The notes beneath the pieces are model-generated. The model saw only the letters and a program-made list of their open reading frames with translations, searched no databases and was not told the origin of the DNA. From NCBI RefSeq assembly GCF_000378505.1, contig NZ_KB899996.1, forward strand, positions 186,001-250,000: a DNA stretch of 64,000 nt, given 5' to 3'. This stretch comes from Modicisalibacter luteus DSM 23508 (GTDB taxonomy: Bacteria; Pseudomonadota; Gammaproteobacteria; Pseudomonadales; Halomonadaceae). The translations under genes were made by a program, and so were the position numbers. Positions 14,274 through 30,294 of the stretch are shown piece after piece (position 1 is the first letter of the stretch; every line of letters begins with the position of its first letter).

Positions 14274-15563
14274 ATGCGCCTTCCCCTTTTGACCTGGTTA
14301 CTGCCGACGCTGCTGCTCAGCCTGCCGGGCGCCACGCTCGCAGCGCCCGAAAGCGAGGCCAAGGACGACCTGCCAGTAGCCGATATCCAGACCTTTGCCG
14401 AGGTCTTCGAACGCATCAAGCGTGCCTATGTCGAGGAAGTCGACGATAGCACCCTGCTGCGCAACGCCATGCGCGGAATGCTCGGTGAGCTGGACCCGCA
14501 CTCGGCCTACCTGGACAGTGAAGACTTCCAGGCCCTGCGTGAGTCCACCCAGGGCGAATTCGGTGGCATCGGCATCGAAGTCGGTATGCAGAATGGTCAA
14601 CTCACGGTTATTGCGCCCCTCGACGACACGCCGGCGGCCGAGGCCGGGTTACAGCCCCGCGACACCATCCTGCGCATCGACGATCAGCCCACCGACCGGC
14701 TGTCGCTCGAGGAAGCCGTGTCGTTGATGCGCGGCGAGGCCGGTACCGAGATCGAATTGACGATTCTGCGTAGCAGCGAGTCCACCCCGCGCACGGTGAC
14801 CCTGACGCGCCAGGCCATCCGCAGTGACAGCGTGAAGAGCGAGATGCTCGAGCCGGGGTATGGCTATCTACGCATCAGCCAGTTCCAGAACCGTACCGGT
14901 GAACAGATCCGCCAGGCACTGGCCGACCTGCAGACCCAGGCGCCACTGAAGGGCCTGATCCTCGATCTGCGCAACAACCCCGGTGGCGTGCTCGACGGAG
15001 CCATCGAGGTCGCGGATGCATTTCTCGGTGACGGACTGATCGTCTATACCGAAGGCCGCCTCGAAGATAGCGACTTGAGCTTCAGCGCCACCCCGGAGAG
15101 CGCAGCCCCTGATGTTCCCGTCGTGGTGTTGATCAATGGCGGTAGCGCCTCGGCGGCAGAGATTGTTGCCGGTGCCCTGCAGGATCAGCAACGCGCCATC
15201 ATCATGGGTACGCGCAGCTTCGGTAAGGGCTCGGTCCAGCAGGTCATGCCGCTGGGCAACGGCGATGGGGTCAAGCTGACAACAGCGCTGTACTTCACCC
15301 CCAATGGTCGCTCGATCCAGGCCCAGGGCATCGAGCCCGATGTCGAAGTCGTGCGTGGCCGTCTCGAGATTGCCGAGTCGTCGGGCCTGGAGATCCGTGA
15401 AGCGGACCTGCGTGGCCACCTGGAAAACGTCAACGGCAGAAGCACAGGACCGCGTCCTTCCGGCGACCCGGTGCAGGACTATCAGTTGGGTGAGGCGCTC
15501 AACCTGCTCAAGGCACTGAATGTTCTTGAGCCGCGCTTCTCGGGGCGCGGCCGGGCCGACTAG
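14274..15563 (+). CDS. ctpA: Carboxy-terminal processing protease (S41 family)
   Basis: A 429-residue periplasmic serine protease. Signal peptide about 1-23 (LLLSLPGATLA); PDZ domain about 95-180 with GIGIEVGMQNGQLTVI; protease core with DLRNNPGG at 231-238. The Ser-Lys dyad fits S293 (GGSASAAE) and K318 (SFGKGSVQQ), spaced 25 residues as in Prc. Homologues trim or degrade cell-wall hydrolases with lipoprotein adaptors, so being next to envC is meaningful. RBS GGAGAG lies before the ATG. A Pseudomonas-type polysaccharide-deacetylase gene does not follow. Confidence 0.93.
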   Translation: MRLPLLTWLLPTLLLSLPGATLAAPESEAKDDLPVADIQTFAEVFERIKRAYVEEVDDSTLLRNAMRGMLGELDPHSAYLDSEDFQALRESTQGEFGGIGIEVGMQNGQLTVIAPLDDTPAAEAGLQPRDTILRIDDQPTDRLSLEEAVSLMRGEAGTEIELTILRSSESTPRTVTLTRQAIRSDSVKSEMLEPGYGYLRISQFQNRTGEQIRQALADLQTQAPLKGLILDLRNNPGGVLDGAIEVADAFLGDGLIVYTEGRLEDSDLSFSATPESAAPDVPVVVLINGGSASAAEIVAGALQDQQRAIIMGTRSFGKGSVQQVMPLGNGDGVKLTTALYFTPNGRSIQAQGIEPDVEVVRGRLEIAESSGLEIREADLRGHLENVNGRSTGPRPSGDPVQDYQLGEALNLLKALNVLEPRFSGRGRAD

Positions 15564-15588
15564 CTTTTCTTAAAGCTCTGTCTAGAAA

Positions 15589-15606
15589 TCGGCGAGCGAT
15601 GGCCAG
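15589..15606. repeat. Dispersed repeat, copy A (18-bp core)
   Basis: The 18-mer TCGGCGAGCGATGGCCAG is identical to 21697-21714. Flanks are also similar (CTGTCTAGAA before, TTTTTA-CG-type after). It lies just past the ctpA stop, between convergent genes. A third, weaker relative (GAGCGATGGC) occurs near 16900 in the ubiI-ubiH gap. Probably a halomonad intergenic repeat family. Confidence 0.6.
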
Positions 15607-15612
15607 GTGTTT

Positions 15613-16848
15613 TTAGCGGCAGGAAGCCGGTAGGCGCCCTCGTTCACCGATCGCCTGGCGCATCAACAAACGTTTGACCGGCCCCAGGCGATCGACGCCG
15701 GACAGCCCGACATTGCGCACAAGGCGCAGTGCCGGGTGCTCGGCCCCGAACAGCAACCGAAAACCGTCCATCAGCGCCAACATGGCCGTATTGTCGCCCC
15801 GCCGACGGCGTGCGTAGCGCGATAGGATACGCACGTCACCCTGCTCGGCGCCCCGCCGCCGCGCCTCGATCAGCTCTTCAGCCAGGACGGCGGCATCCAT
15901 GAAGCCCAGGTTCACCCCTTGTCCGGCCAAGGGGTGGATGCTATGGGCCGCATCGCCGACGAGGGCCAGCCCCGGTTCGACATAGTGCCCAGCGTGGCGC
16001 TGGGTCAAGGGGATGTGCACGGCATCGTCGATGGGCTCCACCGTGGCCAGCCGGTGTTCAAAGGCAGCAGCCATTTCGCGCCCCAGGGCTTCGCGAGGCA
16101 GCGCACAAAGCCGTGCCGCCTCATCCGGCGACGTCGACCACACGATCGAGCAATAATGATCGTCACCGGCCACACTCAGCGGCAGGAAGGCCAACGGACC
16201 ACTGGGCAGGAATACCTGGCGGGCCACGCCGCCATGTCCCCGCCCCGTACGGACGGTGGTCACCAGCGCTGCATGGCCGGTGTCACGGGATGACACGTCG
16301 ATACCGGCCAGCTCGCGCAACTGCGATCGGGCCCCGTCGGCGGCCACCACCAGCGGCGCCAAAAAGTGCCGGCCATCGGCCAGGATCAGCCGGCGCCCCA
16401 CGGCCGTGGTCTGCAGGGCGTCCAGGCGTGCCTCAAATACCTGGCTGACACTGGGCAACTCAGCCAGGCGCGCTTCCAGCGCCGCCAACATGACATCGTT
16501 TTCGACGATGTGGCCAAGGACGTCGGTCCCGGCCTGATCGGCGTCGAAGGTTATCTCGCCGCTACCCTCAGCGTCCCACACCTGCATGCCGGTATATGGC
16601 GTTACCCGCCGTGCTGCCATGGCCGGCCAGGCTCCGAGGCGCTCGAGCAGACGCTGACTGACTGGCGTCACCGCACTGACTCGCTGCGCCAGCTTCCCCC
16701 GCCCGACCGCCTCGCCATCCAGCGGTCCGGGGCGCGCATCCAGTACTGTCACCGCCACCCCGGCCTCGCCAAGCAGGCACGCCAACGATGCCCCCACCAG
16801 TCCACCACCGACGACGATCACTTCTGCCTGTGTCTGCGATTCGTTCAT
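15613..16848 (-). CDS. ubiI: UbiH/UbiI-family FAD monooxygenase (2-octaprenylphenol hydroxylase)
   Basis: A 411-residue flavoprotein hydroxylase of ubiquinone synthesis. The FAD dinucleotide motif VVGGGLVGASLACLLG is near residue 12, the middle DG motif is VAADGARSQLRELAG, and the second FAD motif is LALVGDAAHSIHPLAGQG with a GD pair as in UbiI/UbiF. ATG at 16848 has GGGGA upstream; an ATG six codons earlier lacks an RBS. It lies downstream of ubiH on the same strand; the pepP-ubiH-ubiI order is the common gammaproteobacterial one. Ring position (C5 versus others) is inferred from synteny. Confidence 0.88.
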   Translation of the reverse strand: MNESQTQAEVIVVGGGLVGASLACLLGEAGVAVTVLDARPGPLDGEAVGRGKLAQRVSAVTPVSQRLLERLGAWPAMAARRVTPYTGMQVWDAEGSGEITFDADQAGTDVLGHIVENDVMLAALEARLAELPSVSQVFEARLDALQTTAVGRRLILADGRHFLAPLVVAADGARSQLRELAGIDVSSRDTGHAALVTTVRTGRGHGGVARQVFLPSGPLAFLPLSVAGDDHYCSIVWSTSPDEAARLCALPREALGREMAAAFEHRLATVEPIDDAVHIPLTQRHAGHYVEPGLALVGDAAHSIHPLAGQGVNLGFMDAAVLAEELIEARRRGAEQGDVRILSRYARRRRGDNTAMLALMDGFRLLFGAEHPALRLVRNVGLSGVDRLGPVKRLLMRQAIGERGRLPASCR

Positions 16849-17011
16849 GGCTTTCCCCAGCTTCATGAAGGTCAGAAAAATTTCGTCAGGTTCATCGTGA
16901 GCGATGGCATAGCAAGGCGAAAACTGTCGAAAGCGCGGATTGGCTTGAGTAAATGCGCGCTTGTAACCCTTTCAACACAGCTACGCAGAGCGCAGCAGAA
17001 CCTGTGAGTCC

Positions 17012-18217
17012 TCAGCGTTCCAGCCCCATGGCTCGTCTGGCAAACGCCCGGCGCAGCGGTCCTGCCAGATTCAGCCCAACCAACCCTGCGGCCCGCGCAT
17101 GCGACAGCAACGGATGCGTCACCCCAAACAGGCGGATCAGGCCGTCGCTGAAGCGGATCACGTTGCGGCGATCGAGGTCGCGACGGGTCTCGAAGTCATT
17201 CATGACCGTCACGGCGCCCGGCGATTGCCCCGTCTCGATTCCGGCGTCTAGCGCCGCCACGAGGTCCATCACGCCGCGCAGCGCCAGGTTGAAGCCTTGC
17301 CCGGCCACGGGATGCAAAGCATGTGCGGCGTTGCCCAGCACGGCCAGGCCGGGGCGAACGCTTTCTTCGGCGGTGACCAGCGTCAAAGGGTAGACGTGGC
17401 GGCGCCCGACGCGGCGAAAACGCCCGGCCCGCTCGCCGAAGACCCGTTGTAGCCTCGCAAGAAAATCACCATCGCTCAGTGCCAGTGTCCCGCGCTCCTC
17501 ACCGGCGGCATGCGTCCAGATCAGTTCCATGCGATTGCCGGTCAACGGCAGTAAGGCCAGAGGCCCTTCGGCGGTAAACCGTTCGTAAGCCACGCCGCGA
17601 TGTGGCTGGCTGACCTCAAGCGTGGTGATCAGTGCCGCCTGTTCGTAGGATGCCTCATGACTGGCGATGCCCAGGCGCTCCTTGAGACCTGAACGCCCCC
17701 CATCGGCCAGGACTGTCAAACCTGCATTGAGTTCGCTGCCATCGGATAACCGCAAGCGATACCCCTGCGGCGACGCCGCGATATCCTCGACCCGCGCCGG
17801 ACAGTGCCAATCAAGATCGATATCTGCCAGCCGGTCGTGCAGAACTCGCCCCATCCACGCATTGGGGAGAACGTAGCCCAGCGCATCGACCCTTAATTCG
17901 CCGGCAGTGAGGCGTGTCGCTCCCAGGCGGCCGCGCTCACTGACGTGAATCATCTCGATGGGCTGCGCCTCGCGTGCCAGCGCATCCCACACCCCCAGGG
18001 TCTGAAAATGCCGACGTGAGCCTTGGGCAATGGCACTGGCGCGGGCATCGAAACTGGGCTGGTAGCCCTGCATTCCGTCGGCGGGCAAGGCACTGGCCTC
18101 GATGACGGCGACCCGCAGCCCGTGCCGGCGAATCAGCGGCGCCAGTGCGCAGCCCAAACTGGCGCCCACCAAGCCACCACCGATGATGGCAATGTCCACT
18201 CGCTCGGTGTGATTCAC
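17012..18217 (-). CDS. ubiH: 2-octaprenyl-6-methoxyphenol hydroxylase UbiH
   Basis: A 401-residue FAD-dependent hydroxylase in ubiquinone synthesis. The N-terminal FAD motif is IAIIGGGLVGASLGCAL, the DG motif is VLADGGRSGLKERLG, and the second motif is LAVLGNAAHALHPVAGQGFN, where GN replaces GD as in E. coli UbiH. The start is taken as GTG at 18217 (VNHTERVD), with GAGG about 8 nt upstream; the longer open frame upstream does not look conserved. It lies 72 bp after pepP and 163 bp before ubiI; this last gap carries a weak repeat relative and no gene. Confidence 0.88.
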   Translation of the reverse strand: MNHTERVDIAIIGGGLVGASLGCALAPLIRRHGLRVAVIEASALPADGMQGYQPSFDARASAIAQGSRRHFQTLGVWDALAREAQPIEMIHVSERGRLGATRLTAGELRVDALGYVLPNAWMGRVLHDRLADIDLDWHCPARVEDIAASPQGYRLRLSDGSELNAGLTVLADGGRSGLKERLGIASHEASYEQAALITTLEVSQPHRGVAYERFTAEGPLALLPLTGNRMELIWTHAAGEERGTLALSDGDFLARLQRVFGERAGRFRRVGRRHVYPLTLVTAEESVRPGLAVLGNAAHALHPVAGQGFNLALRGVMDLVAALDAGIETGQSPGAVTVMNDFETRRDLDRRNVIRFSDGLIRLFGVTHPLLSHARAAGLVGLNLAGPLRRAFARRAMGLER

Positions 18218-18289
18218 GTCCTGCCTCGCATAGCAATTATCCTTATTACGTAAATTACGTATTGCAGCATGAGCAGCGATAGTCACTGA

Positions 18290-19627
18290 TCATTTTTTCA
18301 TCATCAGTGCCTGAATATCCTCTACTCGCTTGGGCACTCCCGAGGTCAGTACCTCATGCCCCTCGGTAGTGACCGCGACATCATCCTCGATGCGAATGCC
18401 GATACCACGCAGTGGCTCGGGAATATCCTCATCCTCGGGAAGGTAGAGACCGGGTTCCACGGTAAGCACCATGCCCGGCTCCAGCCGCCGCGGCTCGCCA
18501 TCGCGTCGATAGCCACCGACATCGTGTACGTCGAGTCCCAGCCAATGCGAAGTGGAGTGCAGGTAAAAGCGACGATAGCTTTCGTCTTCGACACGCGCTT
18601 CAACACTACCTTCAAGCAAGCCCAGCTCGATCAGCCCAGCCGTCAGATCGTTCACCACCCCCTGATGGATCTCGGCGAGCGTGACACCGGGCGTTACGGC
18701 CTGTACGGCCCGTTCCTGGGCGGCCAGCACGATTTCGTAGACGCGCCGCTGTTCAGGCGTGAAACGGCCATTGACCGGGAAGGTGCGGGTGATGTCACCG
18801 GCATAGATGTCGTACTCGACGCCGGCATCGATCAGCACCAGGTCACCGTCGCGCAGTGGGCTGGCATTCTCGATGTAGTGCAATACACAGGCGTTGGCGC
18901 CACCTCCGACAATGGTGCTATAGGCCGGTCCTTGCCCGCCCTGCCACAGGAACTCGTGCTCCAGCTCGGCCTGCAAGTGATACTCGTATAGGCCCGGCCG
19001 GCTGGTGCGCATGGCACGCACGTGCGCCCGCGCGGAGACCTCAGCGGCATGACGCATCAGGGCCAGCTCAGCCTCACTTTTGATCAAGCGCTGCTCATGG
19101 ATAAGGTAGGCTACATCGCACAAAGCACGGGGCGGTTGGGCACCCTGGCGCATCCGGCTACCGAGTTCGCGTCGCACCTCTTCGGCCAGTGCGAAGGCCG
19201 CCTCGTCGTCCAGCGGCAGATAGACCGCTTCACGACCATCCAGCAGCTCATACAAACGCTCGTCGCGCTCGGCGTTTTCGAAGGCCTGATCGATGCCGAA
19301 TTGTGCCTCGGCGCCCTCGGCGCCAATGCGAATGCCGGTCCAGGCTTCCTTGGCGGGGTCCTTATCCTGACAGAACAGTACGGCCTCGCCAGCGTCGCGA
19401 CCGGGTAACAGCACCAGTAAGGCGTCCGGCTCGGGAAAACCCGTCAGGTAATGAAAATTGCTCTCCTGACGAAAGGGGTACTCACTGTCATTGCTGCGTG
19501 TTGCCAGCGTGGCCGCAGACAACAGAACGGCACTGCGCGGAGGCAGGGCCGCCATCAAAGCCTGACGACGCCCCCGGTATTCTTCCAGGCTGATGGCCGC
19601 CGGGCGCGGCAGGATGTCATGTGACAT
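18290..19627 (-). CDS. pepP: Xaa-Pro aminopeptidase
   Basis: A 445-residue M24 metallopeptidase that removes N-terminal residues preceding proline. N-terminal creatinase-like domain (about 10-170) includes SNDSEYPFRQESNFHYLTGF. The catalytic domain shows metal ligands in LIDAGVEYDIYAGDITRTFP, HSTSHWLGLDVHDVG, LTVEPGLYL and GIRIEDD. It lies 9 bp from ygfB on the same strand, matching the conserved ygfB-pepP-ubiH-ubiI order. Confidence 0.95.
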   Translation of the reverse strand: MSHDILPRPAAISLEEYRGRRQALMAALPPRSAVLLSAATLATRSNDSEYPFRQESNFHYLTGFPEPDALLVLLPGRDAGEAVLFCQDKDPAKEAWTGIRIGAEGAEAQFGIDQAFENAERDERLYELLDGREAVYLPLDDEAAFALAEEVRRELGSRMRQGAQPPRALCDVAYLIHEQRLIKSEAELALMRHAAEVSARAHVRAMRTSRPGLYEYHLQAELEHEFLWQGGQGPAYSTIVGGGANACVLHYIENASPLRDGDLVLIDAGVEYDIYAGDITRTFPVNGRFTPEQRRVYEIVLAAQERAVQAVTPGVTLAEIHQGVVNDLTAGLIELGLLEGSVEARVEDESYRRFYLHSTSHWLGLDVHDVGGYRRDGEPRRLEPGMVLTVEPGLYLPEDEDIPEPLRGIGIRIEDDVAVTTEGHEVLTSGVPKRVEDIQALMMKK

Positions 19628-19636
19628 TCGCTTTCC

Positions 19637-20218
19637 TCATTGCTGGGGTTCGTTGTCGGCCTGTTCCACCTGCGGTCGACCCGGGTGCTGTTCGGTATAC
19701 AGCAGCATCGCCGCCATGCGCGCATGCTCGGTCAACGCAAACAGGTCGTTCTCATTCTCGGCATCGTCCTCCAGAGCCAGGTCGTCGATGCCGGCAAGCA
19801 CCTCGAGATCCTCGATGGCCTCGCGCAGGTTGGCCGACCAGGCATCACGGGTCTCGGCACTCACCTCGCCGACGACCTCGAGAAAACCCAGGGTCCATTC
19901 ACGCAGCCCGCGGGCCCGCTCAGCCAGCGAGAACATGTCATCGGGCAATAGCGGCTCGTAGTTGAGTTCCGCCGCGGAAAGCGCTTCCAATACCTGGCGA
20001 CGCCAAGTCAGCAGAACCTCGCCCTGGTCACGGTCCTTCGGTTGTTCGACGCCCATTGCGGCACACACTTCCTCGAGCCAGGCGTCGGCGGATAAATCGT
20101 GCAGCGCCAGGCCGGACGCCAGGCGGCCGTCGAGAAACGCTGGCGACTGCAGGCTGCCGTGAACCAGAAAAACGTTGGCGATGGTGGAAAAGTCGTGCTG
20201 GTCGTTGATGATCGACAT
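19637..20218 (-). CDS. ygfB: UPF0149 protein YgfB
   Basis: A 193-residue acidic UPF0149 protein. Typical sequence: the start HDFSTIANVFLVHGSLQSPAF-like helix region, then LLPDD and ARGLREWTLGFLEVVGE. Family members have no enzyme motif; in Pseudomonas YgfB influences antibiotic-related regulation. ATG at 20218 begins the conserved region; the upstream in-frame extension does not. It is first in the ygfB-pepP-ubiH-ubiI set and divergent from zapA. Confidence 0.9.
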   Translation of the reverse strand: MSIINDQHDFSTIANVFLVHGSLQSPAFLDGRLASGLALHDLSADAWLEEVCAAMGVEQPKDRDQGEVLLTWRRQVLEALSAAELNYEPLLPDDMFSLAERARGLREWTLGFLEVVGEVSAETRDAWSANLREAIEDLEVLAGIDDLALEDDAENENDLFALTEHARMAAMLLYTEQHPGRPQVEQADNEPQQ

Positions 20219-20403
20219 GGTTATCCGTAGCGAGTGGAAGGGATTCGACGGCCGAGGCGCCTCTATCGTGGTCAACCCAGGCCGGATGCGGCGGCGTGAG
20301 CTACATTGACCGGCCCATACCGCCTCTCTATAGTGGCCGAAACTGTCTGCATCTTACCGTATCGGGCCCTGCCTTGGCCCACCCCCAGTCCCAGGAGCCA
20401 GCC

Positions 20404-20718
20404 ATGAGCGATGACAAGCGTTCGACGACGGAGATCACCCTGCTGGGGCGCAGCTACGTCATCGCCTGCCCACCCGAGGAACGCCCCCAGCTGGAGCGGG
20501 CCGCGCGCTATCTGGACCGCGCCATGCATGGAATCCATTCCCGCGGCAAGGTCCTCGACTCGGAGAAGGTTGCCATCATGGCCGCCCTCAATATCGCTCA
20601 CGACCTGATTCGCATCCAGGACGAGCATCGAGCCGGGGAGGAAAACCTGGCCCGTCTCAATGAGCGTCTCGGCCAGGCCCTCAACGGCATGCCCGGGCCC
20701 AAGGAGCCGGCATCGTGA
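20404..20718 (+). CDS. zapA: Cell-division protein ZapA
   Basis: A 104-residue FtsZ-ring stabiliser. It has the N-terminal ITLLGRSYVIACPPEERP fold followed by a helical dimerisation segment with coiled-coil character (about 65-95; HDLIRIQDEHRAGEENLARL). ATG at 20404 is supported by AGGAG about 8 nt upstream (CAGGAGCCAGCC). The order zapA-ssrS-fau downstream is the standard gammaproteobacterial arrangement. Confidence 0.93.
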   Translation: MSDDKRSTTEITLLGRSYVIACPPEERPQLERAARYLDRAMHGIHSRGKVLDSEKVAIMAALNIAHDLIRIQDEHRAGEENLARLNERLGQALNGMPGPKEPAS

Positions 20719-20735
20719 TTGCGCGGCACATATCT

Positions 20736-20765
20736 TTGGCGACCGCCACCAGCCTCTGTTAGGAT
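20736..20765 (+). promoter_or_regulatory. Putative 6S RNA promoter
   Basis: TTGGCG (20736-20741) and TAGGAT (20760-20765) are spaced 18 bp apart, ending 6 bp before the expected 5' end of 6S RNA at 20772. Confidence 0.55.
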
Positions 20766-20771
20766 GAAGAC

Positions 20772-20953
20772 GTTCCCTGGGGTGTGCGCCAGTCGCTGAA
20801 GTCCCTCGAGCCTATGCGCAGTACCCAGGGGGCCAATAGCTAGGCAGGCCCGTGTGCATGTCCGCGCGACGGAAAGCCTGACGGCCTGCCTGCGGCCACC
20901 CACCTTGAACCAGTGGGTTCAAGGGCCAGAGCGACAACGGCACTCTGGGGAAC
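20772..20953 (+). ncRNA. ssrS: 6S RNA
   Basis: About 182 nt between zapA and fau, the standard place and size for 6S RNA. The near-universal 3' segment CACCTTGAACC...GGGTTCAAGGG is present (about 20900-20922). The ends GTTCCC and GGGGAAC can pair to close the long stem, with TGGGGTG/CACTCTG continuing it with bulges. 6S RNA mimics an open promoter and binds sigma70-RNA polymerase in stationary phase. Ends are placed by pairing and may be off by a few bases; the transcript probably continues into fau. Confidence 0.92.
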
Positions 20954-21027
20954 TCATATCCCACCACGGGAATCGGCACGCGCTGCAGGATTCCCTGTTT
21001 TCCGTCTCAACGCCTTGCCGGTCAGCC

Positions 21028-21678
21028 GTGGATTTCGATACCGACTCCGTTACCGTTAGCCTGTCCCAGCATCAGCGTCGCAGGAACCTGCGGCGGGAGT
21101 TACGCCAGCGCCGCCGCGCGCTGTCGCCCATGCAGCGCCGTCGTGCCGCCGTGTCACTTGGTAAGCGCCTGCGCGGCCTGCCGGAAGTTCAGCGCGCCCG
21201 GCGAATTGCCATCTACCTGCCCAACGACGGCGAGATCGACGTCACCGTACTGTTACCCTGGCTGAAACACCGCGGCGCCAAGGTTTATCTTCCGGTGCTT
21301 CGCCCGCTATCCGACAATCGCCTGTGGTTCGTGCATTTCCACGAAGCGACGCCCATGGTGGCCAACCGCTTCGGCATTCGCGAGCCGCATACCCGCCATG
21401 GCGCCCACCGCGCCCGGCGCTTGCCGCCCTGGGCCCTGGATCTGGTTTTGTTGCCCCTGGTCGGCTTCGACGATGCCGGCAACCGCATGGGCATGGGGGG
21501 TGGTTTCTACGACCGCAGCTTCGCCTTCGTGCGTCATCGCCGTCCGCGCCCGCGCCTGATCGGTGTGGCCCATGATTGCCAGCGTGTCGAACACCTCCCG
21601 GTGGCTTCATGGGATGTCCCGCTCGATGCCATCGTCAGCGATGCGCGGGTCGTCCGACCCGACCGCGATAGTTCCTAG
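21028..21678 (+). CDS. fau: 5-formyltetrahydrofolate cyclo-ligase
   Basis: About 216 residues. The enzyme makes 5,10-methenyl-THF from 5-formyl-THF with ATP. Visible: a basic N-terminus LRRELRQRRRALSP, the substrate region ARRIAIYLPNDGEIDV, and the C-terminal LVLLPLVGFDDAGNRMGMGGGFYDR phosphate-binding stretch (quoted motif begins near residue 135). The open frame extends into the 6S RNA region; I place the start at GTG 21028, which lacks an obvious Shine-Dalgarno, so it is uncertain. Co-location with 6S RNA is conserved. Confidence 0.87.
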   Translation: MDFDTDSVTVSLSQHQRRRNLRRELRQRRRALSPMQRRRAAVSLGKRLRGLPEVQRARRIAIYLPNDGEIDVTVLLPWLKHRGAKVYLPVLRPLSDNRLWFVHFHEATPMVANRFGIREPHTRHGAHRARRLPPWALDLVLLPLVGFDDAGNRMGMGGGFYDRSFAFVRHRRPRPRLIGVAHDCQRVEHLPVASWDVPLDAIVSDARVVRPDRDSS

Positions 21679-21696
21679 GGCTTGTCTGGGAAGAAG

Positions 21697-21714
21697 TCGG
21701 CGAGCGATGGCCAG
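21697..21714. repeat. Dispersed repeat, copy B (18-bp core)
   Basis: Identical 18-mer to 15589-15606 (TCGGCGAGCGATGGCCAG), with similar flanks (TTGTCTGGGAA before, TTTTTTACG after). It lies 19 bp past the fau stop codon, again directly downstream of an operon end. Confidence 0.6.
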
Positions 21715-21771
21715 ACGATTTTTTACGCCGTATGGCCAAGTGCAAGCACTTTTCGGATAGACCTAAAACGA

Positions 21772-21805
21772 GAACCGGCAGGCAACTTGCGTTGCCTGCC
21801 GGTTC
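21772..21805 (-). terminator. Strong hairpin after the 31-codon gene
   Basis: GAACCGGCAGGCAAC (21772-21786) and GTTGCCTGCCGGTTC (21791-21805) form a perfect 15-bp stem with a 4-nt loop. On the minus strand it is followed by TCGTTTTAGG, consistent with termination of the small gene at 21858-21953; it may also stop fau read-through. Confidence 0.7.
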
Positions 21806-21857
21806 GAAATCGTACTGTCCACCCTCGGCTCTTTGAGTTTCGCGAGCCGGGCACCGA

Positions 21858-21953
21858 TCAGGTGCCTACGAATGTCTGAGCATAACCGGTTGCCACCACA
21901 CCGAGACCGAAAATCAGTACCAGTGCCATGACCAGATCGGGCTTGCGCTTCAT
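21858..21953 (-). CDS. 31-residue single-span membrane peptide
   Basis: A short frame encoding MKRKPDLVMALVLIFGLGVV followed by ATGYAQTFVGT. It has a basic N-terminus and one hydrophobic helix (about 7-24), expected to insert with the N-terminus in the cytoplasm. Support beyond the frame: GGAG 8 nt before the ATG, a good promoter (TTGTCA, 17 bp, TATAGT) upstream and a strong hairpin terminator downstream. From memory, similar peptides starting MKRKPDL occur in Pseudomonas, without known function; I could not check this. It is too short for most gene finders. Confidence 0.7.
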   Translation of the reverse strand: MKRKPDLVMALVLIFGLGVVATGYAQTFVGT

Positions 21954-22212
21954 TAACCGCTCCGTAAAAAGTCGTTGTTCTACCTACCCCAGATAACAGG
22001 GGTGACTATAGGGCTACGCAAAAAGAATGACAACTGGTTAACTAACGTTTGCTTCAACGCCAGCCCAGACCACACGCCATCCACCATGTAAGCGAACGGT
22101 TACTAACTTCATCATTTGCGACCTTTCATCACTTATCGGCAGCCGCCGGGAAAACTGTTGGGCATGACATGCTTACCCTCAAGTTCCCCGGCGATTATCG
22201 TCATGCCCAGGT
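21954..22212. other. Gap between 31-codon gene and ilvA
   Basis: 259 bp, relatively AT-rich. It holds the promoter above. CGCCGGGAAAACT (22144-22156) and AGTTCCCCGGCG (22192-22203) form an imperfect inverted repeat just past the ilvA stop, without a T-tract. I see no further gene. Confidence 0.5.
22005..22033 (-). promoter_or_regulatory. Promoter of the 31-codon gene
   Basis: Read on the minus strand: TTGTCA (22033-22028), 17-bp spacer, TATAGT (22010-22005), about 50 bp upstream of the ATG at 21953. This is one of the best sigma70-type matches in the window. Confidence 0.65.
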
Positions 22213-23727
22213 TTAAGCCATGAACAAACGATAAGCGGCGTTATCGGTTTCCTTCCAATAGCGATAGCCGATCCGGTCGAAGTATTCCTCGACGTGGCTG
22301 CGATCACCGTTGGGTATCTGCATACCGACCAACACGCGGCCATAAGCCGCCCCGTGATTGCGGTAGTGGAACAGAGAGATGTTCCAGTCGGCCGGCAGGT
22401 GGGTGAGGAAGTTCATCAGCGCACCGGGGCGCTCGGGGAATTCGAAGCGGTAGACCTGCTCCTCGAAGTGCTCCTTGGGCCGGCCGCCACCGAGATGACG
22501 AATGTGCAGCTTGGCGAGTTCGTTGTCGGTCAGGTCCTCGACCGGATAACCGGCCTCGCCAAGCTTGCGAATCAGCTCGGCACGATCGTCGCCACCGGGC
22601 TTGACCTGCACCCCCACGAAAATGTGCGCATCCTCGGGGTCGGCGTAGCGGTAATTGAATTCGGTAACCATGCGCTTGCCGATGGTACGACAGAACTTCT
22701 TGAAGCTACCCGCCCGCTCGGGAATGGTCACTGCCAGGATCGCCTCGCGCTGCTCGCCGAGTTCGGTGCGCTCGGCGATGTGCTGCAGGCGATCGAAATT
22801 GGTGTTCGCCCCGGAGTTGATGCACAGCAGGGTCTCGCCTTCGGCCCCGGTCTGCTGGATATATTTCTTTAGCCCGGCCAACGACAGCGCACCCGAGGTC
22901 TCCGATACGGCACGGGTATCCTCGAAGATATCCTTGACTGCCGCGCACATCTCATCGGTCGTGACGGTGATGACATCATCGATCAGATCACGGGCGATGG
23001 CGAACGGCACCTCGCCGATCTGCGCTACGGCCACCCCTTCGGCGAACACACCAACCTGATCGAGTACCACACGTTCGCCGGCCTCCAGTGCCGCCTTGAG
23101 GCAGGCACTATCCTCGGCCTCGACGCCGATCACCTTGATCTCGGGACGCAGGTACTTGACGTAGGCGGCCACCCCGGCGATCAGTCCACCACCGCCCACC
23201 GGCACGAAGATCGCATCGAGACGCCCAGTCTGCTGACGCAGAATTTCCATGCCCACCGTGCCTTGGCCAGCCACCACATCGATATCGTCGAACGGCGGGA
23301 TGTAGGTGTAGCCATGCTCCTCTATCAATTCCATGGCGTGGGCCAGGGCCTCACTGAAGGCATCGCCGCGCAGGACCACCTTGGCCCCGCGTGCGCGCAC
23401 CGCCTGGACCTTGATGTCCGGCGTGATGCGCGGCATCACGATCACCGCCTTGACCCCCAGCTTCTTTGCCGACAACGCGAGCCCCTGGGCATGGTTGCCC
23501 GCGGAAGCTGCGATCACGCCCTTGGCCTTCTGCTCGTCGGAGAGCATGACCATCTTGTTATAGGCACCGCGCACCTTGAAGGAATAGACCGGCTGCAGGT
23601 CTTCGCGCTTGATCAGAATCTGGTTGTTGAGACGGCGGGAAAGGAAGGAGGCCGGAGAAATCGGGGTTTCAAGTGCGGCTTCGTAAACGCGGGCCTGGAG
23701 TATCTTCTTGACGGTGTCTTCGAGCAT
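22213..23727 (-). CDS. ilvA: Threonine dehydratase, biosynthetic
   Basis: A 504-residue PLP enzyme giving 2-oxobutyrate for isoleucine. The PLP Lys lies in [14 protein letters not shown] near residue 56; the SxGNHAQG phosphate/substrate loop (ASAGNHAQG) and the glycine-rich [11 protein letters not shown] are present. The C-terminal ~180 residues are two ACT-like regulatory repeats ([17 protein letters not shown] and [16 protein letters not shown]), as in feedback-inhibited IlvA. ATG at 23727 is chosen for the family start and an AGGA upstream. It is divergent from rpiA, as in many gammaproteobacteria. Confidence 0.94.
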
Positions 23728-23886
23728 CCTGGTGTCCTGAGAGATCGCGCGGGACCGGGGCTGGGAAAAGCCCCTATTGGTAGCAAAGGCAACACCCCGG
23801 CGTCCAGCGTATTGGCCGGACACCATTCAATCGGGGCAATGGGCTCGCCTATAATGGCATCTTTGCCATTCAGCCACGAGCCATCT

Positions 23887-24558
23887 ATGACCCAGGACGA
23901 ACTCAAGCGTGCAGTCGCTGCTGCCGCCATCGACGAAATCAAGCCCCTGCTGGGCAGCGATACGGTAATCGGCGTGGGCACTGGCTCCACAGCCAACCAC
24001 TTCATCGACCTTCTGGGCGCGCTGCGGCATGACTTCAAGGGCGCCGTGGCCAGTTCCCAGGCCACCGCCGAGCGTCTCAAGGCTCAGGGCATCGACGTGT
24101 TCGAACTCAACCACGTCGGCAGCGTGCCGGTGTACGTGGACGGCGCCGACGAGATCAACCCGAAACTGGAAATGATCAAGGGCGGAGGCGCTGCACTGAC
24201 CCGCGAAAAGATCGTGGCTGCCTGCGCCGAACGCTTCGTGTGCATCGCCGATGCTTCCAAGCGCGTCGCGGTGCTGGGTGGCTTCCCGCTGCCCATCGAG
24301 GTGATACCCATGGCGCGCTCGTATGTGGCACGCGAGCTGGTCAAGCGCGGCATCATGCCGGTCTATCGCGACGGGGTAGTCACTGACAACGGCAATCAGA
24401 TCCTCGACTGCTACGACTTCCTGATCGAGGATCCGCAGCGCACCGAAGCCGATCTCAATAATATCGTGGGGGTAGTCACTAATGGCCTGTTCGCCGCACG
24501 CGGTGCCGATGTGCTTCTGCTGGGTAGTGAACGTGGCGTAGAGCGCATCACTGCCTAA
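23887..24558 (+). CDS. rpiA: Ribose-5-phosphate isomerase A
   Basis: A 223-residue enzyme of the pentose phosphate pathway. Conserved phosphate loop [17 protein letters not shown] (about 28-44), [18 protein letters not shown] with catalytic Asp/Lys/Glu residues (about 81-98), and the C-terminal GVVTNGLFA. The length is normal. A much longer open frame upstream is antisense to ilvA and is not used. Divergent from ilvA with a 159-bp gap. Confidence 0.95.
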
Positions 24559-24762
24559 GCTTCGCCCTTAAAAATCCCTGATGCCCGGTCACAGCACGTT
24601 GGAAACGCCTTCAACCGGGCAACATACCGCCTTGCAGTCTTGCGCCGTCACCACAGCTCCCGTGTGCAGAGCGGCAGCCTGGCATCGCCGACCTACAGCT
24701 GGGCACTGTACGCCGTCATGAGCATGGGTTTTCAGGAGGTGCTGTACGGAAAGCCGCCGAGC
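24559..24762. other. Gap after rpiA with a possible gene remnant
   Basis: About 200 bp. A plus-strand frame open from at least 24610 to a TAA at 24805-24807 encodes a segment with LYAVMSMGFQEVLYGKPPS. This faintly recalls the SxxGFEALLxGKPV motif of capsule-polysaccharide (KpsC/KpsS-type) proteins. There is no good start, and it overlaps the end of the GT90 gene. If real it is a decayed fragment. No terminator is clear. Confidence 0.2.
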
Positions 24763-25704
24763 CTAGAGCTGGCCGGACAATTCGAAATACTTCCTGGCAA
24801 CCAATAACGAGATTAGCCGCTCCTGCCGACGATCCTTGAACTGTGCCGCATGCTGCTTGGCGTTGGCGATAATCTCTAGCGCCTCATCGGTGTGCGTGGC
24901 GTAATAATCCATCTTCTCCTCGAGATCGGCACAATCGTCCCGGAGCGGTACGTAATGCCGGTAAGGTTCGAGGCGCCCTTCCATGAACCACGTCTCGAAA
25001 CGCGGCCTGGGCATGAGGCACAGCGAGTTCGACGCCAGGATCCACTTGAGGTTGGTCGCGACGTCCTTGCCCTCCAGGCTCAGCACGAATTTGTAGCGCA
25101 ACTGGTCGCGTATGGACATGAAGGGCCGATAGTCGGGCTGCGACTTGAGTTTGGGGTCGGTCTGCCCGATGTCCATTCCCGGTTTGTCATGTAGCCGACG
25201 GACGACCGAGCGGCGCTGATCGTGAAAGCACTTGCCTCGCCATACCACTTCATTGCGCTTGCTTTCGAAAGGCTGCGGGTCGTCGATGAAATTGTAATGA
25301 CGGATGCGGTTCAGCTTGAGCAGTACGGCATTGGCGTTGTCGCCATCGATGGGTCGGCTCTTGACGAAGGAGGGAACGGTGGGCACTTGGGTCACATCGC
25401 CGAAACGATACGCAAAGCGACATGCCGGATCGAAATAGCGCACCACGCTTTTTGCATCCAGGTAGTAGGTGCCCCGCCGTTCGTAGCGAAAGTCGGCGAT
25501 CCGCTGCGCATGTATACCAAGCTCGAAGGGGGACTGGCGCTTGTTGTAGTAATTCACCCGATCGAGGACGTCATCAAGGTCTTGCTCTTGATGTCCGGCG
25601 AGGATCCGTTCCAGCCGATAGCGGAAGAGGCTATCCGGGGCCAGCAGCTTGAGTAGCCCAGCGGAGTAATAGCGAAGCTTTCGACTCTTGTGGACCAGGT
25701 TCAT
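24763..25704 (-). CDS. Glycosyltransferase family 90 (CAP10/LpsA-like)
   Basis: A 313-residue protein with the GT90/CAP10 hallmark in its second half: RDQLRYKFVLSLEGKDVATN then LKWILASNSLCLMPRP, followed by a conserved YVPLRDDCADLEEKMDYY acceptor/donor region. In Gram-negative bacteria such proteins add a sugar to LPS (for example LpsA). The sugar is unknown. It is downstream of waaA on the same strand with only 21 bp between, so it belongs to the LPS-core unit. Confidence 0.8.
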   Translation of the reverse strand: MNLVHKSRKLRYYSAGLLKLLAPDSLFRYRLERILAGHQEQDLDDVLDRVNYYNKRQSPFELGIHAQRIADFRYERRGTYYLDAKSVVRYFDPACRFAYRFGDVTQVPTVPSFVKSRPIDGDNANAVLLKLNRIRHYNFIDDPQPFESKRNEVVWRGKCFHDQRRSVVRRLHDKPGMDIGQTDPKLKSQPDYRPFMSIRDQLRYKFVLSLEGKDVATNLKWILASNSLCLMPRPRFETWFMEGRLEPYRHYVPLRDDCADLEEKMDYYATHTDEALEIIANAKQHAAQFKDRRQERLISLLVARKYFELSGQL

Positions 25705-25725
25705 GGTCAGCTCTGCCCAGCGGCA

Positions 25726-27057
25726 CTACTGAGAGTTATCGGTCCGTGTCGGTAACTCGGACGGACACGGTAATAGCCTTTCCAGGCCATCCAGCGTTCG
25801 CGCTAGCGCCCCCCGCTGAGCCATGATCGCCGCTTTCCCGGCGTCTCCCCGGCGCAGCCGCTCTGCGGGTGCCGCGAATAGATCGCTCACTGCTTCGCCC
25901 AATGCCTCGGCATCGGCGATGTCTGTCAGGGCATTAGCACTGCGCAGCACCTCGGCGACATCCAGGAAATTAGCCAGCTCGGGGCCACTCAGTACCGGCA
26001 CACCAAGAATAGCCGGCTCGAGCAGATTATGCCCACCGATCGGCACCAGGCTACCCCCGACGAAGGCGATGTCAGCGGCGCCGTAGAGACGCATCAGCTC
26101 GCCCATGGTATCGCCCAAGTAGACCGTCGTTGCGCGCTGTACAGGCTCGCTGCGCGAACGACGCGCTAGATGTTCGCCCCGCATCCGGCAAAGATCAGCC
26201 ACGTCGTCGAAGCGCTGGGGGTGCCTCGGAACTAAGACCAACAGGGCGTCGGGGTAACGCTCACGAATGCGGCCATGCGCCGTCAGTACCTGCTCATCCT
26301 CGCCGGGATGGGTCGATGCCGCGATCCATACCGGCCGCGTGCCAAATGATGCACGTAAGCGCTCACTTTCGCCACACACATTCTCATCGACACTGATATC
26401 GAATTTCAGTGATCCCACCACGCTGAGACGTTCGCTCGCCATCCCCAGCTCGCGGAAACGCTCGGCATCCTCGTTAGATTTCGCCGCCAGCCAATCGACC
26501 TTAGCCAAGGCATTGGCCATTAGCGCACCGAGACGACGGTAGCCGCGCATGGCCCGTTCGGACAGCCGCCCGTTGACCACCGCCACCGGTGTCCCTTGGC
26601 GATAGCAGGCCTCGAGCAGATTGGGCCACAGTTCGGTCTCGAAGAAGATGGCCAGATCAGGCGCTAGCTTGCTCACGAAACGCCGCGCTGCACCGGGGAA
26701 GTCCAGCGGCACGAAGTGATGGGTCACTTCGCCGCCGAACAGCGCATCAACACGCTCGGCACCAGTCGCGGTCATGGTGGTGATAACGAGCCGGTGTGCC
26801 GGATAGCGGCTGCAAAGCGCCTCGATCAACGGCCGTGCGGCAATTACTTCGCCCACTGAAGCCGCATGCAGCCATAGCGTCGCACCGTTTAGTGCCGGCA
26901 CAAGGCCCAGCCGCTCGAGGCGCGGATGAGTGGGCACTTGCTCACGCCACACCCGCCGCCAGATCAGCGGCGATAGCGTGTACAACGCACCGCTGTAGAG
27001 ACAGCGCGCCCAGCCCTTGGGCGGCCGCGAGGGCAACGACGAACGCTCAGCGCTCAC
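25726..27057 (-). CDS. waaA: 3-deoxy-D-manno-octulosonic acid transferase
   Basis: A 443-residue GT30 enzyme that transfers Kdo from CMP-Kdo to lipid A precursor at the inner membrane. Signs: [21 protein letters not shown] (start near residue 62), [21 protein letters not shown], and [16 protein letters not shown]. The start is GTG at 27057, overlapping the end of hldE by 11 bp; no strong RBS, so translational coupling is likely. Given kdkA nearby, it may add a single Kdo as in Haemophilus (inference). Confidence 0.93.
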
Positions 27058-28477
27058 GGTCGAGGATGGTCGAGATCATGGCGGTGGTTGAGACGCCGTC
27101 CTCGAAGCCCAGCACCTTGACCTCGCCGCCATTGGCGATGACCGCCTCGCCACCGGCGATGGCCTCGGGCTTATAGTCGCCACCCTTGACCAGTACATCG
27201 GGAAGCACCGCTTCGATCAGGCGCGCCGGGGTGTCCTCACTGAAGGCGACCACCCAATCGACGGCGCCCAGGCCGGCCAGCACCTGCATGCGTCGTGCCA
27301 GCGGGTTGATGGGACGTCGTGGGCCCTTTAGACGCGAGATCGAGGCATCATCGTTGACCGCCACGATTAGACGGTCGCCGAGACGCTTGGCCTGTTCCAG
27401 GTAGGCGACGTGGCCGGCGTGCAGAATGTCGAAGCAGCCGTTGGTCATCACCACACGCTCGCCACGCGCCTGAGCGGCACGTACTGCCTCGATCAACGCC
27501 GGCTCGGTGATGACCCCGAACTCGGCGAGCTTGTCGCCATGCAGGGCGGTGTAGAGTTCGGCGATCGACAGTGTTGCAGTGCCCGGCTTGGCGACCACCA
27601 AACCCGCGGCCAGGTTGGCCAGCGTCATCGCCTCGGGGTAGGCATGGCCGGCGGCCAAGGCCAGGCCAAGCACGCCGATTACCGTGTCGCCGGCGCCAGT
27701 AACGTCGAACACCTCGCGGGCGTGGGTCGGCAGGTGCAGCGGTGCATGGCCTTCACGGATCAGCGTCATGCCTTTTTCGCTGCGGGTCACCAGCAACGCC
27801 TCGAGGTCGAGCTCGGCACGCAGCCGTTCGCCCTTCGCCGCCAGTTCTTCATCGTCGCGACAGTGGCCAACCACGGCCTCAAACTCGCCAAGGTTGGGGG
27901 TGATCACGCTGGCCCCACGGTAACGGGCGAAGTCGCTGCCCTTGGGGTCGACCAGGACACGCTTGCCGGCGGCGCGGGCCAGCGCGATCAATGCCTCGAC
28001 CCGGTTGAGGGTGCCTTTACCATAATCGGAGAGGATGACCACGTCGCTATCGGGTAGCGCCGCCTCGACCTTGCCCAGCAGCTCTGAAGTATCAACATCG
28101 CCGAGCTTCTGCTCGAAATCTAGGCGAATCAGTTGCTGGTTGCGGCTCATCACGCGCAGCTTGGTAATCGTGGGAATCGCGTCGCTGCGCTGCAAGTGGG
28201 CAATTACACCGGTCGCCTCCAGACGCTGCGAGAGCAGGTCGGCGTTATCGTCATTGCCGACCAGCCCTGCCAATGCGGCGTGCCCGCCCAGCGAGGCGAT
28301 GTTGAGCGCGACGTTGGCCGCACCGCCGGGGCGATCTTCGGATTCACCGACATGCACCACCGGTACCGGCGCCTCGGGCGAAATGCGGGATGTGCCGCCA
28401 TGCCAGTAGCGGTCGAGCATCACATCGCCGACAACCAGCAGGCGGGCCTGTTCCAGGGCGGTAAGATCAAGCTTCAT
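27047..28477 (-). CDS. hldE: Bifunctional heptose-7-phosphate kinase / heptose-1-phosphate adenylyltransferase
   Basis: A 476-residue fusion. The N-terminal PfkB/ribokinase domain (about 1-320) has [17 protein letters not shown] and [12 protein letters not shown]. The C-terminal nucleotidyltransferase domain (about 340-476) has [20 protein letters not shown]. The two domains give the two cytosolic steps on either side of GmhB in ADP-heptose synthesis. ATG at 28477 ([18 protein letters not shown]) overlaps the preceding glycosyltransferase gene by 11 bp and waaA downstream by 11 bp, so the three are tightly coupled. Confidence 0.95.
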
Positions 28478-29570
28478 TCGGAGGCTCCGGCGTGACGGTG
28501 CGAGGAAGCGCCAGCAGCGCTTCGGCCTGGGCAATGACATCCTCGGCACGGATCAGGGACATGGCATCGGGGTGGCGCACCCGCTCCCCCCAGGTGACGG
28601 TCTCGGGGTCTTTGTGCAGGTAAGTACGCACCGCCTCGGGGTAGCGGTTGACCACGTAGTCGCGCCATAGGTAAGGCGCGGCTCGGTCGGGATTGGTCGT
28701 GGCGTAGAGTCCTACGGTGGGTGTACCGAGGGCATTGGCCATGTGCACCGGGCCCGAGTCGGGGGCGACCACCAGGCGTGCCCGGTCGATCAATGCCAGC
28801 AACCCCTTCAGTGAACTGCCGCCGATGGCATCAATCACCGCCTCGTCAGGCACCAGAGCGCGGATTCGCTCGCCCATCTCGCGCTCCTGGGCACTGCCGC
28901 CGCCGGTGAGCAATGTTTTCAGGCCGTGCTGCGTCCAGAGGTGTTCAGTGACGGTAGCGTAGCCTTCCGGTGACCAGTTGCGGAAGTTGCGCAGGCGCGG
29001 ATTGGCACAGGGACTCATCAGCACATAGGGTGCTTCACCGCTCACGCGCAACGCTTCGGCATAGGCCTCATCGGGCACGGACAGATTCCACTCAAGGTGA
29101 TCGGTGTAGGCCGAATCGACTCCCAGCAGGCGAGCGAAATCCATGAACGACTCGAGAACATGGGCGCGCGGATGCGGGTCCAGCTGGCGATGGGTGAAGC
29201 GATGCTGCCAATCCTTGGCACGCGCCTTGTCGTACCCGACCCGAACCTTGGCCTTAAGCCCCAGCGACAGCGCGCTGGCACGCAAGGCCTGCTGCATATG
29301 AAGCAGGACATCGAAGTGCGTGTCGGCGAGCTGACGCCAGATCTCGCGCATGCCGGCCAAGCCGGTGGCCTTGTCGTAGACCACGAACTCGACCCCGGAC
29401 AGGCCAGAAAGTAGACTGTGCTCGCCTTTGCCGACGATCCAGGTAAGGCGGGCTTCGGGCCACTGGCGCTGCAGGGCGCGTACGGTGGGCACCAGATTGC
29501 AGACATCGCCCAGTGCGGAAAGCCGCAGCACGCAGAGATGTGCGGGGCGCTCGGGCAGAGGACGCTTCAT
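28467..29570 (-). CDS. opsX: Glycosyltransferase family 9 heptosyltransferase (OpsX/WaaC-like)
   Basis: A 367-residue GT9 protein. The N-terminal acceptor domain has [20 protein letters not shown]; the donor domain has [41 protein letters not shown] with RAKDWQHRF resembles OpsX of Haemophilus more than enterobacterial WaaC; OpsX adds the first heptose to a phosphorylated Kdo. The neighbouring divergent kdkA fits that reading. It heads the opsX-hldE-waaA-GT90 minus-strand unit; its ATG at 29570 is 67 bp from the kdkA start, so they share a promoter region. Confidence 0.85.
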
Positions 29571-29637
29571 GCGGTTGGCAACGCTCCAGACGGGAAAAAC
29601 TTACATTCTATATGATGCCGGCATTCTATGTGACGCC

Positions 29638-30294
29638 ATGGCTACGCCACAAATCACGCCTGCCTGGTTCACCCCCGCCTTCTGGCAAGCCCGAGATGCC
29701 GTGACCGGCCAGGCTCCGGGACGTGGCGCCAGCCTGTTCGTATCCGCCGCGTCGGTGTTGCCAAGCGACAGGCAGTGGGTCTTACGCCTCTATTTGCGTG
29801 GTGGTTTGGCCGCTCGAATCAGTGAGACGCGCTACGTATGGGCCGTCCTCGAACGCACCCGGGCCTTTCGCGAGCTGCGCCTGACTGCGGCCCTGCACGA
29901 ACGCGGCCTGCCGGTTCCCACGCCCGTTGCCGGTTGTGTCTGGCGGCATGGCCCCACCTACGAGGCCGGCCTGTTGACCGAGCGCCTGATGGGGGCGCGG
30001 GCCCTGGCCGAGATGCTGCCGGATGCCGACGATACGTTGCTGGCCCGGGTCGGTGAAACGCTGCGCCGGTTTCACGAGGCCGGGCTCGATCACGTCGATC
30101 TCAACGCACGCAACCTGCTGATCACCCCCGACGAGCGCGTCTGGCTGATTGATCTCGACCGCTGTCGCTTGCGCCGACCGGGCAGTTGGCAGGAGGCCAA
30201 CCTCAAACGATTGCAACGTTCTCTGGAGCGCTTCTCGCCTGGCCAGGGCGAAAACAGGCTGCACCAGATACTCCGGGGCTATGACGTCCATTAA
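29638..30294 (+). CDS. kdkA: 3-deoxy-D-manno-octulosonic acid kinase
   Basis: A 218-residue small-molecule kinase of the KdkA/InaA group with the protein-kinase-like fold. The catalytic loop is HVDLNARNLLI near residue 158, followed by the metal-binding LIDLDRCRLRR; the N-lobe shows WVLRLYLRGGLAARI, close to the KdkA pattern. It phosphorylates Kdo in the LPS inner core. ATG at 29638 is the first in-frame codon that gives a normal length. The plus-strand series kdkA-LapC-like-GT2-GT4 follows. Confidence 0.87.
   Translation: MATPQITPAWFTPAFWQARDAVTGQAPGRGASLFVSAASVLPSDRQWVLRLYLRGGLAARISETRYVWAVLERTRAFRELRLTAALHERGLPVPTPVAGCVWRHGPTYEAGLLTERLMGARALAEMLPDADDTLLARVGETLRRFHEAGLDHVDLNARNLLITPDERVWLIDLDRCRLRRPGSWQEANLKRLQRSLERFSPGQGENRLHQILRGYDVH

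Follow-up and report, generated by a model that had tools for sequence, protein, structure and literature searches.

The window, by which is meant the whole stretch of 64,000 nucleotides from Modicisalibacter luteus DSM 23508 that was analysed, contains between the genes for 5-formyltetrahydrofolate cyclo-ligase (fau) and threonine dehydratase (ilvA) a frame of only 31 codons, and this raises the question of whether so short a frame is a gene and, if it is, what its product might do. A first-pass annotation of the window had proposed a small membrane peptide with a ribosome-binding site, a promoter and a terminator of its own. The frame and its ribosome-binding site are as described there, with 31 residues from an ATG and GGAG 6 nt upstream; translation of 21861-21953 on the reverse strand gives MKRKPDLVMALVLIFGLGVVATGYAQTFVGT. 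The gene, referred to below as the KPD gene, shares its strand with ilvA, located upstream at a distance of 259 nt from the microprotein start, and converges with fau, whose stop is 179 nt from its own (Table 1). Both 6S RNA and zapA are upstream of fau, and as the start of the listed fau ORF overlaps the 6S RNA, the true fau start probably lies further inside that ORF.

Table 1. Features at the KPD locus, in coordinates of the window
Feature	Position	Strand	Basis
KPD microprotein gene, 31 codons plus stop, ATG start	21858..21953	(-)	ORF listing, homologue search, codon analysis
Shine-Dalgarno GGAG, ATG 6 nt downstream	21960..21963	(-)	sequence
Sigma-70-type promoter sequence TTGTCA-17-TATAGT	22005..22033	(-)	motif scan, family comparison
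Intrinsic-terminator-like hairpin, 15-bp stem, tail TCGTTTTAGG	21772..21805	(-)	hairpin scan
fau/ygfA ORF, 5-formyltetrahydrofolate cyclo-ligase, convergent neighbour	20854..21678	(+)	PF01812, 2.4e-42
6S RNA (ssrS)	20771..20955	(+)	RF00013, 100.1 bits
zapA ORF	20296..20718	(+)	PF05164
ilvA, threonine dehydratase	22213..23826	(-)	PF00291, PF00585

Counts made within the window are insufficient to answer the first part of this question. One promoter-like site (10 of 12) was found where 0.5 would be expected, and one terminator-like site where 1.5 would be; as both are near chance expectation, neither is significant alone. The gene is confirmed by comparison across the family, through the conservation of the frame, its codon pattern and a conserved promoter sequence. 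In a search of 58 genomes with the peptide as query, matches at E≤1.9e-6 came from 36 of the 37 that belong to the window's GTDB family (the window's own genome included), G026 being the sole family genome without one, and the peptide is 100% identical in the named species Modicisalibacter xianhensis and in Halomonas sp. McH1-25. The set used for comparison within the family comprises 41 distinct loci (L002-L044 minus the repeats L033 and L036), with 80 named-species loci left out. Across these, the peptide has 31 residues in 34 loci and 32 in seven, and in 38 a GGAG lies no more than 20 nt ahead of the start (absent from L014, L019 and L030).

The pattern of substitution in these sequences is that of a protein under purifying selection. 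Over all pairs of the 41 coding sequences, mean pS is 0.68 and mean pN 0.17, a ratio of means of about 0.25, and entropy at codon positions 1, 2 and 3 is 0.67, 0.25 and 1.34, the third position varying most; the pattern is gone in frame-shifted controls, one or two bases off (0.28/0.28 and 0.10/0.36). Measured against the window sequence, pN/pS in the 13 other loci of the same genus ranges from 0.00 to 0.20 (0.00 in L002 and L003, 0.05-0.10 in L005-L010, and 0.13-0.20 in L021-L023, L026 and L027). A dN/dS near 1, which the first-pass annotation had named as one result that would speak against the frame, is excluded by these values. The 31-residue frame is a real protein gene.

The near-consensus promoter, TTGTCA-17-TATAGT, also holds up in this comparison. 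The sequence occurs once in the 4.53-Mb genome, at the KPD locus, and the exact hexamers, spaced by 17 or 18 nt, are kept within 150 nt upstream at 27 of the 41 family loci. The best promoter score upstream on the sense strand is at least 9 of 12 at 32 loci, with a mean of 9.4 against 7.1 in mononucleotide shuffles, and is below 9 at the other nine (L007, L019, L024, L025, L029, L031 and L037-L039). An alignment of same-genus sequences (9 of 14) retains both hexamers in eight, with far less conservation in the flanking intergenic DNA, and lacks them in L007. At ten loci of a second GTDB family, f21, the best scores are 7-8 of 12, and as these are close to the shuffles the promoter is a feature of the window's family. 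The family f21 is one that we take to be Pseudomonadaceae, from its sequence and from its fau-EVE context (PMC7641849).

The terminator is less widely conserved than the promoter: a strict script found a T-tailed hairpin 3' of the gene at 15 of the 41 family loci. In the window the proposed hairpin with its 15-bp stem is present (10 of 15 pairs G-C, loop 4) at 21805..21772, outside the 21858-22033 span that had been given for the whole unit. Membership of the KPD gene in an ilvA operon was rejected on the ground that the conserved promoter lies between the two genes; read-through from ilvA may nonetheless occur, because this hairpin is the sole terminator-like site found in 21200-22800. Directly past the ilvA stop there is an inverted repeat, GGGCATGAC...GTCATGCCC (22160-22208, 31-nt interior), possibly an ilvA terminator or operator.

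The KPD gene extends well beyond the window's family. At E≤0.05, a profile of 25 family peptides found matches in 169 of the order's 391 genomes; in a class-wide sample it matched 34 of 276. With a profile of 45 diverse short peptides the order count rose to 190 of 391, in 76 of 137 genera, at E≤0.001, a lower bound given that diverged forms are present among the non-matching genomes; in the class-wide sample the same profile matched 48 of 276 at E≤0.05, three of these 48 being from the window's own order, and its weaker class-level matches include some due to chance and some to longer proteins. The first-pass annotation had suggested that Pseudomonas may have similar peptides beginning MKRKPDL, and such peptides are found in f21 (MKRKPDLLWVLVILFGLGVVTTGYTQ...). 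Twenty genomes of the order without a match were inspected, of which 19 have fau. Reading the 3' side of these 19 fau genes revealed a convergent KPD peptide in two (G043 and G051) and a hydrophobic peptide of unclear KPD character near fau in three (G046, G050 and G053); in the other 14, G026 among them, a script found no convincing KPD peptide. Because about half of the sampled genomes of the order are unmatched, the KPD gene is not indispensable for the order. Some genomes appear to have more than one copy: two adjacent KPD-like genes lie beside fau in G039 (L113:2409-2564 and L113:2735-2824), apparently two in G098 (C6:76882-76962 and 77131-77205), and G080, G096 and G198 have two matches each to the 45-peptide profile.

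Where the KPD gene occurs, its neighbour on one side is nearly constant. Searches by tblastn with the window's proteins placed fau at all 43 family loci (L002-L044, 41 distinct) and at all ten f21 loci (L045-L054). Among 60 longer stretches chosen from the hits (54 order-level and six class-level, nine of them repeating places fetched earlier), fau is convergent with the KPD gene in 56, comprising all 54 order-level stretches and two of the six class-level ones. The gap between the two stops has a median of 31 nt, exceeds 150 nt in five and reaches 895 nt at its largest, and the genes overlap in 14 of the 56. The nearest downstream ORF returned by a simple ORF caller belonged to PF01812 in 46 of 50 submitted; the other ten of the 60 loci fall outside this check, the caller having picked another ORF or the locus having been left out. 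A 6S RNA reached the gathering score in each of 20 order-level stretches tested, one apiece. The association also reaches beyond the order, with fau and/or zapA beside the KPD gene in ten outside genomes (G435, G450, G491, G495, G526, G533, G577, G613, G633 and G691). A strong match (E 1.1e-12) in G629 (L137:1179-4254) is not beside fau and is flanked by a nickel-hydrogenase large-subunit gene and a class II tRNA-synthetase-like gene.

The other flank varies. In the window and at many other loci it is ilvA; in seven order-level loci drawn from those without an ilvA hit, the upstream neighbour is an EVE-domain gene in five, the remaining two having a SulA-like gene and a transporter. At L134, L135, L108, L122 and L119, fau and the EVE-domain gene enclose the KPD gene, which is on the opposite strand. 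It therefore falls inside the zapA-ssrS-fau-EVE unit described, as far as the text available to us goes, in PMC7641849.

The features of the protein itself suggest what it may do. AlphaFold, given 22 family sequences, predicts one helix over residues 7-29 (mean pLDDT 90.3), in agreement with the single hydrophobic helix of the first-pass annotation. The predicted helix begins directly after Pro5-Asp6, and Pro-Asp before a helix is as expected for a helix cap. In the weighted 45-row profile, P5 and D6 stand at 100%, a figure that leans on the retrieval of the rows by profile; position 18 is Gly in 95%, position 22 Thr or Ser in 96%, position 4 Lys in 80% and Arg in 12%, and L11 and F15 are kept in 72% and 68%, while the C-terminal tail is the least conserved part. 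L11, F15, G18 and T22 fall on one face of the helix, with G-x3-T/S as a packing pair of the small-x3-small type; the test for helical periodicity in the conservation is suggestive only (shuffle p 0.074). The first 100 nt of the mRNA have less structure than shuffles (z +1.59), as an mRNA open to translation would.

Searches of the protein collections assign the peptide to no described family. The window peptide, seven short relatives and three longer proteins reached no cut-off in Pfam or NCBIfam, the top Pfam score being 14.7 bits for Inovirus_G7P_2 against a cut-off of 27. Neither the KPD profile nor the f21 form matched a PDB chain sequence below an E of 0.4; the best match to the profile, PsbL (E 0.46), lies over the hydrophobic stretch. 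The hits to Inovirus_G7P_2, LapA, PsbL, ArfC and others of this sort were rejected, being below cut-off or at E≥0.026 and lying over hydrophobic stretches. Eleven PHROGs were each matched weakly by one of the 45 members (best 0.0068), and PADLOC gave no match among KPD members. An origin in phages or plasmids was likewise rejected, as the window peptide had no match in the phage collection and the f21 form, the only form tried there, had none in the plasmid collection.

We consider it slightly better than an even chance that the KPD protein is a single-span inner-membrane microprotein expressed from its own promoter, with a helix that packs on a membrane partner or on itself and so steadies or tunes it. 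Transcription would start at the gene's own promoter, independently of its neighbours. By the positive-inside rule, the Arg and Lys residues and the Pro-Asp at the membrane edge would stay in the cytoplasm with the N-terminus, Pro-Asp capping the single helix of residues 7-29, and the short C-terminus would end in the periplasm. The conserved face of L11, F15, G18 and T/S22, with its small-x3-small pair, would then pack against an integral membrane partner or a second copy of itself, and the packed helix would steady or tune that partner. That the protein tunes a membrane complex, as the first-pass annotation had suggested for such peptides in general, is a reading from sequence, and the neighbourhood argues against a membrane partner in one respect: the constant neighbour, fau, encodes a soluble enzyme, and no gene for a membrane partner sits consistently beside the KPD gene at the sampled loci.

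Alternatively, the hydrophobic stretch could serve as a signal peptide, with a product that is a short peptide, exported or processed. ATGYA|Q in the window's peptide resembles a signal peptidase I site, and longer proteins sharing the N-terminal motif look like precursors (L247, ...LVTATVNA|DEW...). Cleavage would, however, leave only about six residues in the window's family, several order-level members have no AxA-like site (GVLASSYTQG, VVITLLTPM), and conservation in the profile is lowest in the tail that would be released, so that we regard this explanation as unlikely.

The longer proteins form a group of their own. Eleven class-level proteins of 98-165 residues (L139, L141, L247, L248, L249, L250, L251, L252, L253, L256 and L259) share an N-terminal signature of K/R-x-PD plus a hydrophobic stretch, with PG in L259. 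They look exported, and the C-terminus is RW or RF in nine. Genes with an apaG domain are near L247, L248 and L259, and ksgA is near L141 and L253; at the remaining loci scanned no common neighbour was seen, and Pfam has no family for the proteins of L139 and L141, the two scanned. Two genomes, G533 and G633, carry both a short KPD gene and a longer KPD protein. The resemblance between short and longer forms may reflect either common descent or a shared export signal. A broader and rather speculative proposal, which we hold to be improbable though not fanciful, would make the KPD gene an overlooked member of a zapA-6S RNA-fau(-EVE) growth-phase island, a member that predates the order (presumably Pseudomonadales) and has a conserved inner-membrane job, and would make the KPD-plus-helix N-terminus a membrane-entry signature common to the longer exported-looking proteins, such that both may meet the same partner.

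A further possibility, that the KPD peptide is a type I toxin, small and hydrophobic and restrained by an antisense RNA, seems to us decidedly unlikely. Its size and single hydrophobic helix fit, second KPD copies lie nearby in G039 and G098, and ibs genes are multicopy; moreover, in E. coli K-12 the slot convergent with and just 3' of fau is occupied by ibsC/sibC, in which sibC is the antisense RNA to the type I toxin IbsC. Against it, the opposite strand has a sigma-70 promoter score of at least 9 of 12 at only one of the 41 family loci (mean 6.3 versus 6.9 in shuffles) in a scan for sigma-70-type sites between 20 nt downstream of the start and 150 nt downstream of the stop, whereas the sense upstream region reaches that score at 32. 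The lack of such an antisense promoter speaks against a toxin of this type, as do the persistence of the frame at a single chromosomal location across the order, the unfolded start region and the lack of matches in the phage (window peptide) and plasmid (f21 form) collections; a toxin regulated in another way may still fit. IbsC (MMRLVIILIVLLLISFSAY) also has no KPD motif.

It is more doubtful still that the function lies in the RNA itself, which might for instance regulate the 3' end of fau in antisense, with the peptide secondary. The tail-to-tail arrangement with fau and the overlap of the genes in a quarter of the sampled convergent loci would suit such a role, and the transcript, with its terminator hairpin included, forms a more stable fold than shuffled sequences do (z -4.62). 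The terminator probably accounts for most of that score, as the fold of the first 100 nt is weaker than in shuffles. Variation is greatest at third codon positions and smallest in the amino acids, the fau stop in the window is well separated from the KPD stop, and 6S was the sole Rfam family at gathering score in a scan of 15000-30000. A spurious ORF, for which the shortness of 31 codons and the near-chance counts of the window could be cited, is a reading we dismiss almost entirely, chance being rejected by family conservation and codon-level selection and opposed by the spread across the order, the promoter and the synteny with fau.

In the literature within reach, which excludes subscription papers and supplements, no paper was found that names MKRKPDL or longer strings of the peptide, and none that links PA5228 and its species to a 'small protein'; PMC11898565 and PMC3902932, from the literature on PA5228, PA5229 and PA5227.1, do not deal with the KPD gene in the text available. 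The protein may be listed among the new small proteins of P. stutzeri (PMC10433244), and it may have been entered elsewhere as a hypothetical protein or detected by proteomics. Judged by sequence searches, the kind, small single-span proteins, is known and the KPD family is new to Pfam and NCBIfam. A mostly single-copy microprotein gene is thus present in roughly every second genome sampled from the order, in the much-studied neighbourhood of zapA, 6S RNA and fau, and yet has no curated family, which makes it a ready target for genetic study.

Among known small proteins, CydX, AcrZ and MgrB steady or tune membrane partners. With these and CcoM, as they are generally described, the KPD protein shares a length of roughly 30-50 residues, a single helix (predicted in its case) and maintenance by selection. 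It differs in that its gene is not beside genes for membrane complexes, in the Pro-Asp at the start of its helix, and in that neither the KPD profile nor the f21 form has a match at E<0.4 to a PDB chain of any complex. IbsC/SibC of E. coli K-12 (NC_000913.3, L267:3352-3492) is alike in being a tiny hydrophobic peptide gene convergent with fau; the KPD peptide is longer, has the KPD motif, is kept across the order and lacks a sigma-70-type antisense promoter. The slot 3' of fau can thus host different tiny hydrophobic peptide genes, KPD here and ibsC in E. coli. The closest likeness in gene order is the ZapA-SsrS-(FAU1)-EVE gene island described in PMC7641849; a term search of its main text found none of 'transmembrane', 'small protein' or 'uncharacterized protein'. 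So far as the available text of that paper goes, the neighbourhood is the same, with zapA, 6S RNA, fau, EVE, ygfB/pepP, ilvA and rpiA, and what distinguishes the loci described here is a microprotein gene on the opposite strand, set between fau and EVE or ilvA.
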